Made by a program: the position numbers and the translations under genes. DNA of 64,000 nucleotides. Source: a bacterium. GTDB lineage: Bacteria > Armatimonadota > Fimbriimonadia > Fimbriimonadales > Fimbriimonadaceae. The stretch covers positions 682,001 through 746,000 of the forward strand of contig PNMZ01000001.1 of the NCBI GenBank assembly GCA_013823945.1, given 5' to 3'. The notes under the pieces are model-generated. The model ran no database searches. It was not told the DNA's origin and was given only the letters and a program-made list of their open reading frames with translations. Below, in pieces: positions 29,722 to 36,721 of the stretch. Numbering within the stretch: position 1 is the stretch's first letter; each line of letters starts with the position of its first letter.

Positions 29722-30111
29722 TCAAGGTTCAAATTCGTTCCCCAAGAGAATAGGTCGGTCGCGCTCTTTGTCAACGATGCACAAAATTCCGAACGCTTCG
29801 TCCGACTCATTCATGAATTGGTGGGCCACCATCGGGCCAACATGCACAACATCCCCTTGAACCAAATCTTGCCAGACTCCATCCAGCAAGACTTTCCCGG
29901 ACCCACGCATCACGACAACACAATGCTCGTGTTGGTGCTTTTCGTGCGACGTATAGCCGCCTGGTTCAATCTCAAAATAACGCGTTTCAAACTTGCTTCG
30001 ATCAGAACTAAAAAGAACCCGGCGGCTCACATCCTGCCATTGTCCTTCCTCATTCTTGTAGGTCGTTTTTTCTACACCTGGCCACTCAAGGCCAAGACCT
30101 TTCTCAATCAT
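29722..30111 (-). CDS. Cupin-domain protein
   Basis: 129-residue single cupin. Metal-binding motif 1 is in GGYTSHEKHQHEHCVVVMRG, with three histidines and a Glu, and motif 2 is PMVAHQF. It is followed by a short C-terminal strand. The ATG overlaps the stop of the upstream dehydrogenase gene, so these belong to one operon. Single-cupin proteins act as isomerases, dioxygenases or sugar-binding proteins. Context beside two medium-chain dehydrogenases suggests carbohydrate or polyol metabolism; the actual reaction is not known. Confidence 0.82.
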   Translation of the reverse strand: MIEKGLGLEWPGVEKTTYKNEEGQWQDVSRRVLFSSDRSKFETRYFEIEPGGYTSHEKHQHEHCVVVMRGSGKVLLDGVWQDLVQGDVVHVGPMVAHQFMNESDEAFGILCIVDKERDRPILLGNEFEP

Positions 30112-31070
30112 CCAAACATCACCACTGGTTTCAAAATTTCCCCTCGCTTCATTTGTTCATACGCCTCCGGTAGGTTACTCAGTGAAATCCGGTGACTGAC
30201 GACCTGTTCGCCCCGGATCCGCCCCGACTTCAGCCAATTCAGTGCAATTTGCGTATCGTTCGGTCCACAACTGTAGCTGTTGACCAAGGACAAGTCCTGC
30301 ATGTAAGCCCGTTCAAAGTCAAAGCCGAGCTTCCCGGGGGGAAGCGGCGCAAAGAGCCCAATCCTCGCTCCAGGATTTGCAATCGTGAGGGCAAACTCAA
30401 AAGCATCTTCTGAGCCTGGACAAACGACAACCACATCAAATCTCTCATTGGTGTCGGGTAGTCGGGCATCCACCCCACTTTTGACTGACCAGTCAATCCG
30501 TCCTGGATTGCGCTCGAATGCGGTACACCCTGGCATCATCAGCGCATGAAGCAACCCCATAACCCCAAGTCCAATCACCGCTGATTTTTCGCCCTCCCGA
30601 TATCCCAGACGTCGAAGTTGTTTTGCTACACAGGCGAGCGGCTCCACCAGCGTTGCTGTAACTGCATCAAGCCCTTCTGTGACCCAACAATCGCCCAAAA
30701 GCTCCTGAGAAACCCCAAAATATTCTGCCATTCCCCCCGGATCAAGCTTTGTCTTGCGCCATGTTTCACAGTGGACAAACTGCCCTATGCGGCACAACTC
30801 ACACTCAAAACAAGGCGCATGATGATGAGGTGAAACTTGAACCCCAACCGGAAAACGTTCATCCTGGGATTCAACCACAACTCCACAAACTTCATGGCCC
30901 AATACATGGGGGCCACTCACCGCTTTACGCTCCATGTACCACCCCATCAGTTCACCCGAGCAGAGTCCTGAAGCCAAACTCTGAACTAAAATGCCACCAT
31001 CCGGGCACATAGGAATCTGAACTTCATCAATTCGAATTTCTCCACCGGAATGGAATCGAGCCGCTCTCAT
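30108..31070 (-). CDS. Zinc-binding medium-chain alcohol dehydrogenase (short)
   Basis: 320 residues. The catalytic zinc region has SGLCSGELMGWY and GPHVLGHEVCGVV, and the four structural zinc cysteines are in CFECELCRIGQFVHC. The Rossmann motif is SAVIGLGVMGLLHAL. VEPLACV and the final VSHRISLSNLPEAYEQMKRGE are also typical. It is a threonine/sorbitol-type MDR enzyme, a little shorter than most. The start ATG 31070 has GAGG 5 bases upstream; a longer reading frame to 31235 would overlap the next gene by 158 bases and is rejected. Substrate unknown. Confidence 0.85.
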   Translation of the reverse strand: MRAARFHSGGEIRIDEVQIPMCPDGGILVQSLASGLCSGELMGWYMERKAVSGPHVLGHEVCGVVVESQDERFPVGVQVSPHHHAPCFECELCRIGQFVHCETWRKTKLDPGGMAEYFGVSQELLGDCWVTEGLDAVTATLVEPLACVAKQLRRLGYREGEKSAVIGLGVMGLLHALMMPGCTAFERNPGRIDWSVKSGVDARLPDTNERFDVVVVCPGSEDAFEFALTIANPGARIGLFAPLPPGKLGFDFERAYMQDLSLVNSYSCGPNDTQIALNWLKSGRIRGEQVVSHRISLSNLPEAYEQMKRGEILKPVVMFG

Positions 31071-31075
31071 CATGT

Positions 31076-31079
31076 CCTC
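31076..31079 (-). promoter_or_regulatory. Shine-Dalgarno site deciding the 30108-31070 start
   Basis: On the minus strand GAGG lies 5 bases before the ATG at 31070 and overlaps the stop of the upstream dehydrogenase, supporting translational coupling. Confidence 0.5.
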
Positions 31080-32064
31080 ACGGGTGGAAGACATACTTGA
31101 TTCCCCGCCCTTGTTCCAGGTCTCGAAACACCATCTCGCCGTCCGCCAAGTCTCGGTTACCAGAAAAAAGCGGTGACAAATCAAATTCAGGATGCAACAA
31201 CCAACTTCGCGCCATCTTGACCGCTCTCGTTCCAAAGTGAAATGGCGAAATCACCGAGATGTCATCGTAATGCAATCGTTGGGTATCAAACCGAACCTGT
31301 GTCCCCGCCTTACATCCCCCAAAGAGCACCAAACTCCCGCCGCGTCGAGCAAATTCAAGCGACTTCTCCCATATTTCAACGTTCCCAGTGCACTCAACCA
31401 CCAAGTCAAATTGCCCATGAACCTGTTCTAGCGGCAAACTCTTTGCCCCAAGTTGTTCGCCAACTTCTAGCCGATTCAAATTCCGACCCGCCAAAGTAAT
31501 GCTCTGGACACCAGCCCGCCGGAGGGCTGCAACGAACATTAATCCAATTGCTCCCGGACCAATCACCAAAACCTCCATTTGGGGCTTCGGTTGAATCCGC
31601 ATCACCCCTTGAGCAACGCAGGCAAGTGGCTCCAACAGGGAAGCTTGTTCAAAGCTCAAAGAGTCAGGTTTCGGGAAGACATTCGTCCGCGCAATCCGCT
31701 CGGGAATCAACAAAAATTCGGCGTATGTCCCCAAAACTTTTGTCGCCATGATCGATTCACAGAGATTTTCTTGATCATTTACGCACCAGCGACATTCTTG
31801 ACATGGCGCGGAATGAACCCCCATGATGTCGTCTCCAACGGCAAATGGAGCTCCGTTTCCGACTGCAACCACCGTCCCACTGTATTCATGTCCAAAGACT
31901 CCTGGCATAGGAATTTGGGGATGTCCTCTCAAAAATGCCTTCAAGTCCGTCCCACAAGTTGTAGCCGCTCGAACACGGATCACAATATCACCCGGACCAG
32001 GAATCGGAACTGGCACCGAACAGTATTCCAAGCACCCCGGAGCCTGCAGCACCAATGCCTTCAT
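31078..32064 (-). CDS. Zinc-binding medium-chain dehydrogenase
   Basis: 328 residues starting MKALVLQAPGCLEYCSVPVP, which is the family's normal opening, so the longer frame to 32193 is rejected. Catalytic zinc region: ATTCGTDLKAF and GVFGHEYSGTVV. Structural zinc cysteines: CQECRWCVNDQENLC. Coenzyme fold: VLVIGPGAIGLMFVAAL. LEPLACVAQG is shared with the neighbouring paralogue, so the two genes may have arisen by duplication and could act as a heteromeric or sequential pair. Its likely class is sorbitol/threonine dehydrogenase. It is the first gene of the operon, divergent from the SRPBCC gene with about 97 bases between. Confidence 0.86.
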   Translation of the reverse strand: MKALVLQAPGCLEYCSVPVPIPGPGDIVIRVRAATTCGTDLKAFLRGHPQIPMPGVFGHEYSGTVVAVGNGAPFAVGDDIMGVHSAPCQECRWCVNDQENLCESIMATKVLGTYAEFLLIPERIARTNVFPKPDSLSFEQASLLEPLACVAQGVMRIQPKPQMEVLVIGPGAIGLMFVAALRRAGVQSITLAGRNLNRLEVGEQLGAKSLPLEQVHGQFDLVVECTGNVEIWEKSLEFARRGGSLVLFGGCKAGTQVRFDTQRLHYDDISVISPFHFGTRAVKMARSWLLHPEFDLSPLFSGNRDLADGEMVFRDLEQGRGIKYVFHP

Positions 32065-32161
32065 CGTATCAGTTTTCAACTCGTTCTCAATGAGCGCCAT
32101 TCCAAAAGTCGGCTGGTACACTCCAGCCACTCCCAATCGGAGCCTACCAACCCACAACGCT

Positions 32162-32608
32162 ATGCCCAACGTCAAAACGTCCGTTTGGATCAATGCTCCG
32201 CTCGATAAAGTCTACGCAATCGCGCGTGATAATCGCTCATTTCCCGAATTTATGGAGGATGTCGACTCACTCGAAGTCACCAGCGAAACCGAAACGACGG
32301 TTGTTTCGGACTGGGTCGGCCGAGTCCCCGCGTTCAATCTCAAAGTGCGGTGGACTCAAGAGGACGTTTGGAATCACGACACCCATACTTGCATTTTCAC
32401 CCAGGTCAAAGGGGACTACGACAAGATGGTCGGAACCTGGCAATTCACTGCTGAAAACGACGGAACTCGATTTGACTCCGTTCTCGACTACGAATATTCG
32501 GTGCCCGGTCTTGGCCCCCTCGTTGGAAAAGTTATCTACGGCCTCGTCGTAAAAAATATGGAAGGCGTCCTGGGAGCCATTAAGAAACGCGCAGAATCTC
32601 AGGCTTAA
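32162..32608 (+). CDS. SRPBCC (polyketide cyclase/START-like) family protein
   Basis: 148-residue small-ligand-binding protein. The fold pattern is clear: SVWINAPLDKVYAIARDNRSFPEFMEDVDSL at the N-terminus, an antiparallel beta core with KVRWTQEDVWN, a turn near GDYDKMVGTWQF, and the long C-terminal helix (VGKVIYGLVVKNMEGVLGAIKKRAES). Such proteins bind lipids or aromatic compounds; COQ10-type members bind polyprenyl quinones. It is two bases before the CBS-DUF1385 gene and likely co-transcribed with it. ATG 32162 is chosen because it is the first methionine after which the domain starts. Confidence 0.8.
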   Translation: MPNVKTSVWINAPLDKVYAIARDNRSFPEFMEDVDSLEVTSETETTVVSDWVGRVPAFNLKVRWTQEDVWNHDTHTCIFTQVKGDYDKMVGTWQFTAENDGTRFDSVLDYEYSVPGLGPLVGKVIYGLVVKNMEGVLGAIKKRAESQA

Positions 32609-32610
32609 AC

Positions 32611-33726
32611 GTGCAAATCCATCAAGCCTATGTCGGCCATCTCATGGTCGGAATTGAATCTGCCGATCACGGCAACAGCCTTGCTGCCGTTAGCACAATG
32701 CTGATTGATTACGGTGTTCCGGCGATCCCTGTAACCCGAGACGGACTCTATATCGGACTAATCTTCGAACACGACATTCTCACAAGCTTGAGCCAAGGTC
32801 GCGAACTCAACGCACCTGCCGATCAGGTCATGCGGCAGACCGCGGCAATTTCCAATCGGGCTTCTGCTTCAGAAGCCCTGCGCGCTATGGAAGCCGCCAA
32901 CGTCTCAACCCTTGCCGTTGTCGATGACCAATCGCGAGTACTGGGCGTCATCACAGCATCACGTCTCATCGCCGCAAACGATCGTTATGCGCGCCCCAAA
33001 CTTGTCGGTGGCCTCGCCACACCGTTCGGCGTCAGGCTCTTGGGTGGAGGCGTTACGGGTGGTGCCAACTCCTGGCAGATACTGGGGACAGGCGCGATCA
33101 TGTTTCTCACTTTTCTACTTGGGAGTTATCTCGCCCTTGTCGTGTCGTGGTTCGTCCCCGTTGATATCCGAGTAACCGATTGGTACACGGCTATCCATTA
33201 CGGAATGGGACTCCTGTTCTTCCTATTGTTGCTCCGATTCCAACCCCTCAGCGGCTACCATGCCGCAGAACACATGGTTGTCCATGCGATTGAGCAAAGC
33301 GAGCCTTTAGAACCTGAAACAGTTTCCCGAATGCCTCGCGTTCATCCTCGTTGTGGAACAAATGTCGCTGTTGCCGCCGGGCTGTTTCTCAGCATTTCTG
33401 AAACCCCTTTTATTCCCCAATCTGACATTAGATTTCTCATTGCTCTTCTTACCACCATATTCCTATTCCGACCACTGGGAGCATTGGTGCAACGCGAATT
33501 CACCACCCAACCACCTAGCAATAAGCAACTCGAAGCGGGAATCAAAGCCGGAAAGGAGTTGCTCGCCAACTACCAAACGGGATCAAACACTCAAGTTTCG
33601 ATTCCTGTCCGAATCTGGCAAACCGGAATGCTTCACGCCATTGCTGGATCGATGGGAGCGGCCCTTGTGGTCTATCAGATTCTCGCAGTCCTTCCCATCC
33701 CTGATTACTGGAAGGTAATCTTATGA
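32611..33726 (+). CDS. Fusion of two CBS domains with a DUF1385 membrane domain
   Basis: 371 residues. Residues about 8-125 hold two CBS motifs (AVSTMLIDYGVPAIPVTRDG and VSTLAVVDDQSRVLGVITAS), which bind adenine nucleotides. The rest is DUF1385: two or more hydrophobic helices (WQILGTGAIMFLTFLLGSYLAL and MGLLFFLLLLRF), then the signature GYHAAEHMVVHAIEQ..PRCGTN. DUF1385 proteins are multi-span membrane proteins of unknown function, and the joined CBS pair suggests nucleotide-dependent gating. The start is a GTG at 32611, two bases after the SRPBCC stop. The domain order is uncommon in my experience; this could be checked by domain search. Confidence 0.82.
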   Translation: MQIHQAYVGHLMVGIESADHGNSLAAVSTMLIDYGVPAIPVTRDGLYIGLIFEHDILTSLSQGRELNAPADQVMRQTAAISNRASASEALRAMEAANVSTLAVVDDQSRVLGVITASRLIAANDRYARPKLVGGLATPFGVRLLGGGVTGGANSWQILGTGAIMFLTFLLGSYLALVVSWFVPVDIRVTDWYTAIHYGMGLLFFLLLLRFQPLSGYHAAEHMVVHAIEQSEPLEPETVSRMPRVHPRCGTNVAVAAGLFLSISETPFIPQSDIRFLIALLTTIFLFRPLGALVQREFTTQPPSNKQLEAGIKAGKELLANYQTGSNTQVSIPVRIWQTGMLHAIAGSMGAALVVYQILAVLPIPDYWKVIL

Positions 33727-33745: not shown

Positions 33746-33991
33746 GTGGAAACCTTCTACAACATTCTTCTCGTGATTGCCGCACTCATCGGCATCTCCT
33801 TCTCTGCGATCATTTTCTTCACCGGTAAAGGCGACGCGATGTCCGGTGGCGGTGGTGGTGTCCGCACTAACTTTAAAGGGAAGGCCAGCTTTGATGATCA
33901 AATGTACAAAATTGTTCTCACCCTCGGTGGTTCGTTCATGGCTTTGATGCTCATCTTAGACGTGATGGCGACCCGCATTTTTCAAAACTAA
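33746..33991 (+). CDS. secG: Protein-export membrane protein SecG
   Basis: 81 residues: a first membrane helix (YNILLVIAALIGISFSAIIFF), a Gly-rich loop GKGDAMSGGGGGVRTNF, and a second helix (IVLTLGGSFMALMLILDVMA). That is the SecG layout, the small third subunit of the SecYEG translocon. The GTG at 33746 is used; GAGG lies about 11 bases before it. It lies 19 bases after the CBS-DUF1385 gene. Sequence similarity is limited as usual for SecG, but layout and the GKG..GGGGG loop support the call. Confidence 0.8.
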   Translation: METFYNILLVIAALIGISFSAIIFFTGKGDAMSGGGGGVRTNFKGKASFDDQMYKIVLTLGGSFMALMLILDVMATRIFQN

Positions 33992-34007
33992 TCCTTGGGG
34001 CCACATC

Positions 34008-34721
34008 TTGGCCATAAAAATCCTTCACACCAACGACTTCCACGGCAAACTTACAGAAGATTCTCTGCCGCAGCTTGTTGCCCTGCGTGAAATGTGTGAT
34101 CTTTATTTTGATTGCGGTGACAGCATCAAGTCCGGAAACCTCGCCATCCCGATAAAATCAGACCCAGTCTGGCCCTTACTCCAAAAAGCGAGAGTAACCG
34201 CTACCGTCCCGGGCAACCGAGAATCACACATTCTCAACTCCGTAGTCCAAACAAAGTTCTCCGGATCGACACACCCAATCTTATGCTCCAACTGGTTCCG
34301 GCGAGACGGCACCCTTTTCCTTCAAAATGAACTTAAATTGGAGAAAAACGGCCTCAAGATCGGCATATTCGGTGTCATGGTGCCCATGGTTACTGATCGA
34401 ATGGCGAGCCGTCACACGAGTCAATTTCTCTGGACACAACCGATCCCTGCCGCTCAGTCACAGGTTCAAAATTTGCGGCCCCATGTAGACCTTCTCATTT
34501 GCTTATCGCACATCGGCCTGACTCAAGACCGCCGACTCGCCGAAGCATGCCCAGAAATTGATCTGATCTTGGGAGGACATTCCCATTCCGTTCTGACGGA
34601 GCCGGAAATCATCGGCAAGACCGCCATTTGTCAAACGGGATCCCACGCTCGGTTCATGGGGAACTACGTCTGGGATGGTTCACTCCAGTCTTATGAACTC
34701 ATTCCTTGGAGGCAAGGATGA
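34008..34721 (+). CDS. Calcineurin-like metallophosphoesterase (5'-nucleotidase type)
   Basis: 237 residues. Metal-binding motifs are in order: HTNDFHGK (Asp and His), YFDCGDSIKSG (Asp), VPGNRESH (Asn, with Arg in place of His), ICLSHIG (His) and ILGGHSHS (two His). The pattern is that of UshA/5'-nucleotidases, but the C-terminal nucleotide-binding domain is missing and no signal peptide is seen, so it is a cytoplasmic phosphoesterase of unknown substrate. The start is a TTG at 34008, with TTGGGG upstream. It is overlapped by ccmA (ATGA). Confidence 0.8.
   Translation: MAIKILHTNDFHGKLTEDSLPQLVALREMCDLYFDCGDSIKSGNLAIPIKSDPVWPLLQKARVTATVPGNRESHILNSVVQTKFSGSTHPILCSNWFRRDGTLFLQNELKLEKNGLKIGIFGVMVPMVTDRMASRHTSQFLWTQPIPAAQSQVQNLRPHVDLLICLSHIGLTQDRRLAEACPEIDLILGGHSHSVLTEPEIIGKTAICQTGSHARFMGNYVWDGSLQSYELIPWRQG
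34708..34712 (+). promoter_or_regulatory. Shine-Dalgarno site for ccmA
   Basis: GGAGG lies 5 bases before the ATG at 34718 and favours that start over the in-frame ATG at 34706. Confidence 0.6.
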
Positions 34722-35275
34722 TCGCACAAGTGGACAATTTGGGTCACCGATTCGATCAAGGATGGCTGTTCCGACATGTCGCCTTTGACTTGAATACTGG
34801 TGATCGGCTACTCATTCAGGGCCGAAACGGCAGCGGTAAATCCACTCTGTTAAAGTGCCTAGTTGGCCTCATGATCCCGCGAGAAGGAACATTTGTCGTG
34901 CCCGAGGCAATCGGTTATGCCGCTCTCGATCAGAGTCTCTATCCGGCCCTAAACGCCATAGAACATTTGGAGCTCTCCGCTGATCTGCGGAATTGTGATC
35001 CCCAATCGCAGACCCTCTTAACTCAAGTCGGTCTTGCCGACCAAGCTACTAAGCCCTGTCGAACATTTAGTACCGGGATGCGATCTCGACTCAAAATCGC
35101 CCTCGCCCTCCAGCAGCATCCGGCTCTATTGATTCTCGATGAACCCACTGCTGCCCTCGATCAATCAGGGCGCGACCTAATTCATTCAATCATGGAAGAA
35201 TTTCCAGGGGCTGTGATCTACGCGTCCAATGATGACGCTGATGCGAGGTGGGCCACCCATGCCCTCACCCTTTAA
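34718..35275 (+). CDS. ccmA: Cytochrome c biogenesis ABC transporter ATP-binding protein CcmA
   Basis: 185-residue ATPase subunit of the CcmABCD complex, which handles haem for cytochrome c maturation. Walker A is GRNGSGKST; the Q-loop region has YAALDQSLYPALNAIEHL; the signature is FSTGMRSRLKIALAL; Walker B is LLILDEPTAALD. Short length and neighbours ccmB, ccmC and ccmD support CcmA rather than another ABC ATPase. The start ATG overlaps the phosphoesterase stop as ATGA and has a GGAGG site. It overlaps ccmB by 17 bases. Confidence 0.9.
   Translation: MIAQVDNLGHRFDQGWLFRHVAFDLNTGDRLLIQGRNGSGKSTLLKCLVGLMIPREGTFVVPEAIGYAALDQSLYPALNAIEHLELSADLRNCDPQSQTLLTQVGLADQATKPCRTFSTGMRSRLKIALALQQHPALLILDEPTAALDQSGRDLIHSIMEEFPGAVIYASNDDADARWATHALTL
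35245..35252 (+). promoter_or_regulatory. Shine-Dalgarno site for ccmB
   Basis: GAGGTGGG lies 6 bases before the ATG at 35259 and favours it over the in-frame ATGs at 35229-35232. Confidence 0.55.
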
Positions 35276-35984
35276 CCGCGCATGGCGGGCGTGCCTTCGC
35301 AAAGAATGGCGCAGCGAAATTCGCAATCCCCACGGCCTCTACCTTTCGTTCCTGTTCGGGGCGATGGCAATGGCGTCCATTATGTTTGTGACCGGGACTC
35401 AGCGTCCGACCGCCGAAATGGCGGGGGGGCTCTTCACCATCGTGATCCTATTTAGTGCCCTCCAAGCTGTTCCCCGACTATTCTTAGCCGAGGAAGAACA
35501 AGGCACTTTTGACCTTGTACGCCAATGGGGATCGCTCGACGCTCTTTGGCTCGGCAAGGCTCTCTTTGCTGGGCTACAGCAGCTCATCACCGCTCTTGTT
35601 CTCGGCGTCCTTTTTGCAGGAATCATCCCTCTGCCGATCGTCAGTCCGATTCACTTTTGGATAACGATTCCTCTTCTCGGGCTTGCGGTCGCGAATGTGC
35701 TCTCACTGACGAGCTCAATTGTTATCACCGCCCAAAACCGATGGATTCTTTCCACCGTTATTGCTCTTCCATTGCTCTTCCCATTCATTTTCCTAGGGAT
35801 TTCCGCTCTGCGGGTTTCGTTCGGAATCGGATCATTAGAGGGAGGCTGGCAAGCCATCGTTGCCCTTCTGATGTACGGTATCGCTCCCCTGGCAATCGGG
35901 CCAAACCTTGCCCGAACTCTCTGGAACGAACGTAAGGACCCGAGTCAAAACCCGATTGGTCAACATAATGAGGTCAAGCCATGA
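35259..35984 (+). CDS. ccmB: Haem exporter permease CcmB
   Basis: 241 residues with about six membrane helices (LSFLFGAMAMASIMFVTG, GLFTIVILFSALQA, LITALVLGVLFAGII, IPLLGLAVANVLSLT, ALPLLFPFIFLGISALRV and ALLMYGIAPLAIG). The N-terminal RACLRKEWRSEIRNPHGLY segment resembles the cytoplasmic lead helix of CcmB. It partners CcmA in the ABC exporter. It overlaps ccmA by 17 bases and ccmC by 4 (ATGA), so the whole set is one operon. The start at 35259 is preferred because of the upstream GAGGTGGG. Confidence 0.88.
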   Translation: MPSPFNRAWRACLRKEWRSEIRNPHGLYLSFLFGAMAMASIMFVTGTQRPTAEMAGGLFTIVILFSALQAVPRLFLAEEEQGTFDLVRQWGSLDALWLGKALFAGLQQLITALVLGVLFAGIIPLPIVSPIHFWITIPLLGLAVANVLSLTSSIVITAQNRWILSTVIALPLLFPFIFLGISALRVSFGIGSLEGGWQAIVALLMYGIAPLAIGPNLARTLWNERKDPSQNPIGQHNEVKP

Positions 35985-36721
35985 AATCAGCTTGGTTTGC
36001 CGTACTCGGGATCGCTATGGGGCTTATGCTGATCGGCACGATGCTCGTTCCGGATGCTCAACTTTTCCGCGATCCGACTATGGCGAGAATTATGTTCACG
36101 CATGTTCCATGCGCGATGATCTGCTCCGGATTCCTGATCGCTTCAGCCTGGCACGGGTTCAAGGTTCTCAAAAACTACAACGACACCTCCGCAACCAAAC
36201 TCCATGCTGCGGTTGAACTCGGTAGCCTCTTTGCCGCTTTGACCATGGTTACGGGAATCTTATTCAGTAAGATTATGTGGGGCGAGTATTGGCATGGCGA
36301 TCCTCGACAAGTTTCCTTTCTCATCGTCCTCTTCATCTATGGCGGATTGCTAGCCCTACGCGCTGCATTTCCCGACCCTATCCGCCGTGATCGGAATACC
36401 GCCTCGTACGCTCTTGCCGCAATTTTGCCCTCGATATTCCTCACATTTGTCTATCCGCGCCTTAAAGCGGTTCAGCAACAATCGTTTCACCCCAGCAACA
36501 CAATAGTAGAAGGTCAGATGGACATCTTCTACAGCGTCGGCCTCTATGGAAGCCTAGTGCTGATCGCTATCATTGCCATTGTCGTTTTCAAACTCCGAGT
36601 TCGCACCGAACTCCTCGCCCGCAAACTAGAAAATCATGGAAATCTCGAAACTCATAGCGGCGATTCCGCCTCTCCTCGTATGGTTCGGCCTGTGGCTGTA
36701 TCTCCGGAGCATCTCGACTAA
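35981..36721 (+). CDS. ccmC: Haem-handling membrane protein CcmC
   Basis: 246 residues with about six membrane helices. The tryptophan-rich haem-binding stretch is MWGEYWHGDPRQVS, and two histidine sites (FTHVP near residue 41; QSFHPS in a later loop) fit the external haem ligands of CcmC. It delivers haem to CcmE together with CcmD and the CcmAB ATPase. The start overlaps ccmB by ATGA. The C-terminal 30 residues share DNA with a small ORF, which is the likely ccmD (36636-36770). Confidence 0.9.
   Translation: MKSAWFAVLGIAMGLMLIGTMLVPDAQLFRDPTMARIMFTHVPCAMICSGFLIASAWHGFKVLKNYNDTSATKLHAAVELGSLFAALTMVTGILFSKIMWGEYWHGDPRQVSFLIVLFIYGGLLALRAAFPDPIRRDRNTASYALAAILPSIFLTFVYPRLKAVQQQSFHPSNTIVEGQMDIFYSVGLYGSLVLIAIIAIVVFKLRVRTELLARKLENHGNLETHSGDSASPRMVRPVAVSPEHLD

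Follow-up and report, generated by a model that had tools for sequence, protein, structure and literature searches.

CBS pairs are known on membrane proteins such as MgtE and CorC, and the site-2 proteases SpoIVFB and A. fulgidus S2P (5g5r) combine a membrane metal-site domain with a cytosolic CBS pair. The CBS domain of SpoIVFB is located at the C-terminus. Nucleotide-binding CBS domains carry the motif G-h-h-T/S-x-x-D, whose Asp residue has a role in adenylate binding. The DUF1385 family (PF07136) corresponds to COG3872/YqhQ, which is described as a predicted metal-dependent enzyme. DUF1385 is listed without function in one article (PMC3597751), and two others give 'survival to stress conditions, sigma-B and sigma-F regulons' as a table entry for YqhQ and report its expression with the sigma-B regulon (PMC8706201, PMC3782651). 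None of the papers found gives a function for DUF1385. The literature searched, which included few of the subscription journals, yielded no mention of PF07136, COG3872 or DUF6391, nor of an Armatimonad together with a CBS domain.

The DNA analysed here is a stretch of 64,000 nucleotides (the window) from a genome of the Fimbriimonadaceae (Armatimonadota). It harbours a gene coding for a CBS pair joined to a DUF1385-type membrane domain, and our analyses confirmed that this is a real, conserved combination. We call the subfamily of window-like DUF1385 proteins 'type II', a label of our own. The features of the locus are as follows.

32162..32608, + strand: SRPBCC (Polyketide_cyc) gene, 2 bases upstream of the CBS-DUF1385 gene (Pfam, translation)
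32611..33726, + strand: gene for the CBS-pair and DUF1385 type II membrane protein, 371 aa, GTG start (ORF; Pfam CBS and DUF1385; AlphaFold2 pLDDT 90.8)
32626..32793, + strand: CBS repeat 1, about residues 6-61 (AlphaFold2 secondary structure with limits set by eye, Foldseek CBS matches)
32812..32976, + strand: CBS repeat 2, about residues 68-122 (best Pfam CBS stretch 79-122; model, limits set by eye)
32992..33069, + strand: short beta element with a GG(L/M)ATPxGV motif, residues 128-153 (G133, G134, A136, T137 and P138 invariant in 24 orthologues)
33070..33150, + strand: predicted TM helix 1, residues 154-180 (model, hydropathy)
33178..33240, + strand: predicted TM helix 2, residues 190-210 (model, hydropathy)
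33244..33363, + strand: signature region PLSGYHAAEHMVVHAIE...RMPRVHPRCGTN, residues 212-251, on the predicted cytosolic side (DUF1385 core, invariant residues, translation)
33355..33399, + strand: predicted TM helix 3, residues 249-263 (model, hydropathy)
33421..33480, + strand: predicted TM helix 4, residues 271-290, with the model helix extending to 298 (model, hydropathy)
33490..33579, + strand: Q294 and T298-T299, both conserved, with the cytosolic helix 304-323 (columns invariant or nearly so; hhalign)
33628..33690, + strand: predicted TM helix 5, residues 340-360 (model; beyond the hhalign-aligned part of canonical DUF1385)
33746..33991, + strand: secG, 19 bases downstream of the CBS-DUF1385 gene (profiles)

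The earlier note on this DNA had proposed such a fusion, with an SRPBCC gene before it and secG after it, and all of this is borne out. Pfam detects both parts in the 371-residue protein, CBS in two stretches (44.3 bits for a cut-off of 24) and DUF1385 with 54.6 bits for a cut-off of 22.1. The same note described the DUF1385 signature as complete. The conserved core is indeed matched, but the best stretch (residues 213-271) aligns with positions 99-156 of a 227-position profile, and thus the full model is not covered. The full-length AlphaFold2 model, built with 24 sequences, has a mean pLDDT of 90.8 and a pTM of 0.72, and the membrane domain modelled alone (residues 128-371, 38 sequences) reaches 95.9 and 0.91, respectively. 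CBS-pair proteins head the best 50 Foldseek PDB rows for the full model (e.g. 2ef7, E 7.1e-10). A sequence search against solved structures listed 22 matches, all of them to the CBS parts (first 142 residues) as judged by name and matched range. Mean net charges of +2.1 to +2.3 place three segments inside (linker 125-153, loop 229-248 and residues 299-330), and the remaining loops, at -0.5 to +0.4, outside; the cytosolic side was taken to be that of the linker bearing the CBS pair.

The window genome codes for a second DUF1385 protein on another contig (G000:C2:306767-307786), which matches the Pfam model with 189.7 bits over profile positions 36-226 plus a further piece. This is the usual situation, as DUF1385 matches are found in 286 of the 291 Armatimonadota genomes, generally two per genome. 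A tree of 82 domains separated 33 canonical from 49 type II sequences by a branch with an SH-aLRT value of 100 (quick tree, no bootstraps). The canonical set includes the window genome's own protein and one protein from another phylum (L110), and the split was unchanged with or without the former; one sequence (L021) was left out of the trees. The window protein is thus, as judged from its sequence, a deep paralogue of canonical DUF1385 and represents a distinct, ancient subfamily.

Alignment of 38 type II domains (alignment A2) with 20 of the 33 canonical proteins (alignment A3) using hhalign gave a probability of 99.6% and an E-value of 2.5e-24 over 139 columns. For A2, 16 of 23 orthologues from the initial 24-row profile (A1) were picked by hand, L139 was left out because of a wrong cut, and L127, L128, L131 and L136 were excluded by a sequence pattern. 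The aligned part starts at about TM helix 2, includes the HxxEH...HPRCGT core and ends with the helix that follows TT; it does not extend to both ends of DUF1385. The two groups share the HxxEH, E and HxRCG core elements as well as TT and the next helix, and all 38 type II domains match DUF1385 in Pfam. In contrast with canonical proteins, most type II members have an N-terminal CBS pair, their consensus is devoid of the segment (CRRANGEI...PFLRG) that links the GGxA motif to the first TM helix in canonical proteins, and they carry an extra C-terminal TM helix, outside the hhalign alignment. We read the GG(L/M)ATPxGV element, which also lies outside the aligned part, as the probable counterpart of the canonical N-terminal GGQAVIEGV.

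Another family, DUF6391 (PF19928), also matches type II proteins. In the window protein, the match spans the HPRCGT region with the helices after it and is marginal (34.1 and 35.5 bits for a Pfam cut-off of 33); the cut-off was passed in nine and failed in 12 of 21 near genomes. Of the 38 type II domains, 37 match DUF6391 at E<=0.1 (best 9.4e-10), although only the last half of the model aligns (66-128 of 134), and one sequence devoid of CBS domains (L151) gave no DUF6391 match at E<=0.001. Positions 33340-33522 of the window and 37 of the 38 type II domains match both DUF1385 and DUF6391. Such double matches suggest that the two families are related.

Likenesses to the other systems mentioned above concern the general plan or the CBS part. 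The parallel with site-2 proteases is one of plan, with a metal site that is here proposed: no M50 Pfam match was found among the 38 type II membrane domains, the 40-residue core region contains HxxEH and no HExxH motif, and the structure searches were unspecific; 5g5r is present among the CBS matches in both the sequence and the Foldseek searches. MgtE and CNNM/CorC similarly have a CBS pair beside a membrane domain (Foldseek rows 2zy9 and 7cfh), but the matching portion is the CBS part, and neither was found among the best 50 Foldseek PDB rows for the membrane domain alone.

A near copy of the window gene, 96% identical, is present in the nearest named genome (Armatimonadetes bacterium Uphvl-Ar1, CP021423.1). 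As a peptide-pattern scan of the genome collection returned a single close relative, the spread of the family was measured by profile searches. Seven rows were kept out of the A1 profile: L011 and L022 for a motif with a different spelling, L010 and L029 for truncation or a missing part, and L004, L005 and L008 for being near copies or the window itself. At E<=1e-3, it matched 289 of the 291 Armatimonadota genomes, a figure that includes canonical DUF1385 and other CBS proteins. At E<=1e-15, matches were found in 262 of 397 genomes, of which 260 are Armatimonadota. Type II proteins are thus kept by most Armatimonadota genomes examined. The 31 remaining Armatimonadota genomes gave no A1 match at this threshold; some of them are nearly complete (G023 and G106, 99%; G036, 97%), which indicates that the gene can be lost. 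Outside Armatimonadota, two of 106 genomes passed 1e-15, one through a CBS half alone (G313) and the other through a canonical DUF1385 protein (G367), and no type II protein was seen in this small sample of other phyla. Four of 72,556 plasmid records matched weakly, and none covers 80% of the query. DUF1385 itself was found in three of 14 control genomes, those of Bacillus subtilis, Thermus and Thermotoga.

The presence of the CBS half was scored by profile coverage. The match starts within CBS repeat 1 (profile position <=60) in 206 of the 260 genomes, with 149 of 150, 54 of 67 and three of 43 genomes in the three listings. This count includes a decayed copy (in G164, see below) and four genomes in which the CBS part forms a separate piece of the profile match (G095, G189, G192 and G240). 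In 40 genomes of families f36, f37 and f40-f45, the match starts at profile position >=120, leaving the CBS half unmatched. The eight of these sequences that were inspected all lack it, and two proteins scanned whole with Pfam (L146 and L151) have DUF1385 and no CBS. The matches in the other genomes start at 73-94 (seven genomes of f6 and f11), start at 64 (G154) or are fragments or canonical-like (G039, G047, G064, G082, G099 and G188). Three of the f6 genomes (G061, G062 and G063) have open frames of 452-458 codons with a profile match only from 73-75; the N-terminal part of these frames may be a different or diverged domain. In the earlier note, a fusion that is both common and already characterised would have counted against the observation. 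It is common in Armatimonadota, but nothing characterising it was found: the parts are known, and their CBS-DUF1385 arrangement is undescribed in the literature searched, which covered a minority of the subscription journals.

Is the CBS half an acquisition or has it been lost? Holding the 42 CBS-bearing rows together cost 2.5 log-likelihood units (p-AU 0.43; quick trees, no bootstraps). A single gain of CBS and a loss in one clade would both fit this test.

We also analysed the gene neighbourhoods of 38 loci with a target, 36 of which hold type II; our gene caller gave no target in L138 and L149. As this simple longest-ORF rule performs poorly in GC-rich loci, neighbouring genes were counted again with profiles in six-frame translations. 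The profiles derive from ORFs found in part of these loci (17 for argS, five for rpmB, six for secG and four for pfk) and were named by Pfam afterwards. In the window's family, secG is found downstream in all nine loci, starting 12-52 bases after the type II gene. Outside this family (27 loci), the gene is followed by a same-strand argS in 19 cases. An rpmB gene of opposite orientation lies upstream in 19 cases as well, clearly so in 16 and with an overlap in three; the overlaps probably reflect gene starts called too far upstream. Pfam confirmed the names argS and rpmB on two examples each. Among the seven loci devoid of CBS, argS is downstream in six and rpmB upstream in five. Given this common setting, the best reading of CBS-bearing and CBS-less genes is that they are orthologues distinguished by the CBS half.

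The window SecG scores under both cut-offs (22.0 bits with Pfam and 23.3 with NCBIfam). Of three orthologues, L155 and L157 pass NCBIfam, as well as Pfam, and L158 fails NCBIfam. A relative of the SRPBCC protein was sought in the 38 loci by one-sequence phmmer; it was found next to the gene in the window and in L154, L155 and L156, all of one genus, and in no other locus. Thus, the SRPBCC context is local and that of secG wider. Downstream in the window, positions 33746-36721 harbour genes for SecG, a metallophosphatase-like protein, an ABC ATPase, CcmB and a cytochrome c assembly (CcmC-like) protein, closely packed or overlapping and in one run with the CBS-DUF1385 gene. On the minus strand, positions 30108-32193 contain two adjoining ORFs, one of which (31078-32193) matches ADH_N and ADH_zinc_N; the other looks similar, as judged by eye only.

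We determined dN/dS ratios for the two halves of the gene. Comparison of the window with its closest relative gave 0.030 for residues 1-125 and 0.023 for residues 126-371 (0.025 for the whole gene), and the L007/L008 pair gave 0.051 for the CBS half and 0.045 for the membrane half. The more distant comparison of the window with L006 gave 0.25 vs 0.13, values that are unreliable at a dS of 1.6-2.3. The CBS half is maintained, though apparently changing faster than the membrane half. The low ratios in both halves, together with the 96% identical copy, indicate that the ORF is not a chance one, and purifying selection on the CBS half makes some regulatory or structural role for it likely.

H217, E220, H221, E228, H245, R247, C248, G249 and T298 are invariant in the 38 type II domains, and their hhalign partners are invariant in the 20 canonical proteins. 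Q294 is not among these paired residues, the canonical Q being one column off in the alignment. Such a set of His, Glu and Cys residues suggests hydrolytic chemistry at a metal site. In the reduced genome G164 (1.5 Mb, same family), the type II copy (L102) is still an open frame, yet E220, H245, R247, G249, T250, Q294 and T298 are all gone; the related genome G036 has no type II match at E<=1e-15. The loss of these seven residues together fits a shared function, which agrees less well with the survival of H217, H221, E228 and C248, as these represent four residues out of the six in the proposed site.

Structure searches with the membrane domain returned no Foldseek match at E<=0.001 in the PDB or among viral models, and nothing at Z>=5 among 1000 chains with VIA-align 2 (best Z 4.8). 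In the absence of a clear match to a solved structure, the metal reading is not backed by an enzyme fold; these searches establish neither a new fold nor an absence of relatives. The VIA rows for formate channels and aquaporins (Z 3.1-4.6) were not read as a sign of kinship; such values fall in the range that the tool labels as a common arrangement.

Our likeliest mechanism, which we put forward tentatively, is that of a metal-dependent membrane enzyme which its CBS pair tunes or dimerises. The protein would reside in the inner membrane, with the N-terminal CBS pair followed by the short beta element and about five predicted TM helices. The HxxEH...E...HxRCG core would bind a metal ion, with putative ligands drawn from H217, H221, E228, H245 and C248, and E220 might act as a general base. 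Located at the cytosolic face of the membrane, this site could act on a membrane-linked substrate, by hydrolysis or a similar reaction. Dimerisation would be the task of the CBS pair, which would also tune the activity of the protein, possibly via a nucleotide. The core motif could instead have a structural or transport role.

The part played by the CBS pair can be read in several ways. It is doubtful, if conceivable, that it is a true sensor of adenylates (AMP, ATP or SAM type) that switches the membrane domain according to energy state. The CBS fold is clear and similar pairs have been solved with AMP or SAM/MTA (2rif, 3kpb). The first repeat of the window protein reads GLIFEHD, with D55 kept and F in place of the usual T/S, and the second GVITASR, with T115 kept and R in place of the usual D, so that one or both sites might bind. 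However, neither repeat has the whole motif, its Asp position is occupied by D in 17 (CBS1) and 27 (CBS2) of 44 type II sequences, and one clade is devoid of the CBS half. The adenylate-dependent control announced in the earlier note is therefore unsupported as such, and we regard nucleotide control of type II proteins as possible. Somewhat less doubtful is a pair that serves for dimerisation or structure only, next to a constitutively active membrane domain. The invariant columns lie mostly in the membrane half, and the CBS half was lost, or never gained, in one clade. As this clade keeps its CBS-less gene at the same genomic place, the membrane part can apparently work without CBS. Similarly, the CBS domain of SpoIVFB is reported not to be critical for either interaction with the substrate or its processing (PMC6242693). 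In contrast, purifying selection in close pairs is about as strong on the CBS half as on the membrane half.

We consider it unlikely that the membrane domain is a CBS-gated channel or transporter in the manner of MgtE or CNNM/CorC. The known CBS pairs of such proteins and the weak VIA rows discussed above would favour this, but those rows are within the common arrangement, and the invariant H/E/H/E/H/R/C set at the predicted cytosolic face looks catalytic or metal-binding. That the fusion is degenerate or pseudogenised and devoid of function is highly improbable. Although the Pfam DUF1385 match is partial and a decayed copy exists in G164, the selection test contradicts this reading, as do the invariant core and the matches in 260 of 291 genomes. 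Among all these possibilities, we retain the CBS-tuned or CBS-dimerised metal-dependent enzyme as our working proposal.

In its broadest form, our interpretation would make type II a membrane metalloenzyme characteristic of Armatimonadota and set by its CBS pair, a nucleotide-gated protein encoded beside rpmB, argS and secG that unites DUF1385 and DUF6391 into one superfamily; we regard this complete picture as a long shot. The existence of an old second branch of DUF1385, a family that spans organisms from Bacillus subtilis to Thermus and Thermotoga, narrows the common functional residues to nine. The presence of CBS in most members and its absence from one clade represent a natural experiment on the CBS contribution. 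Finally, the soluble CBS pair provides a handle on a membrane family otherwise hard to assay.
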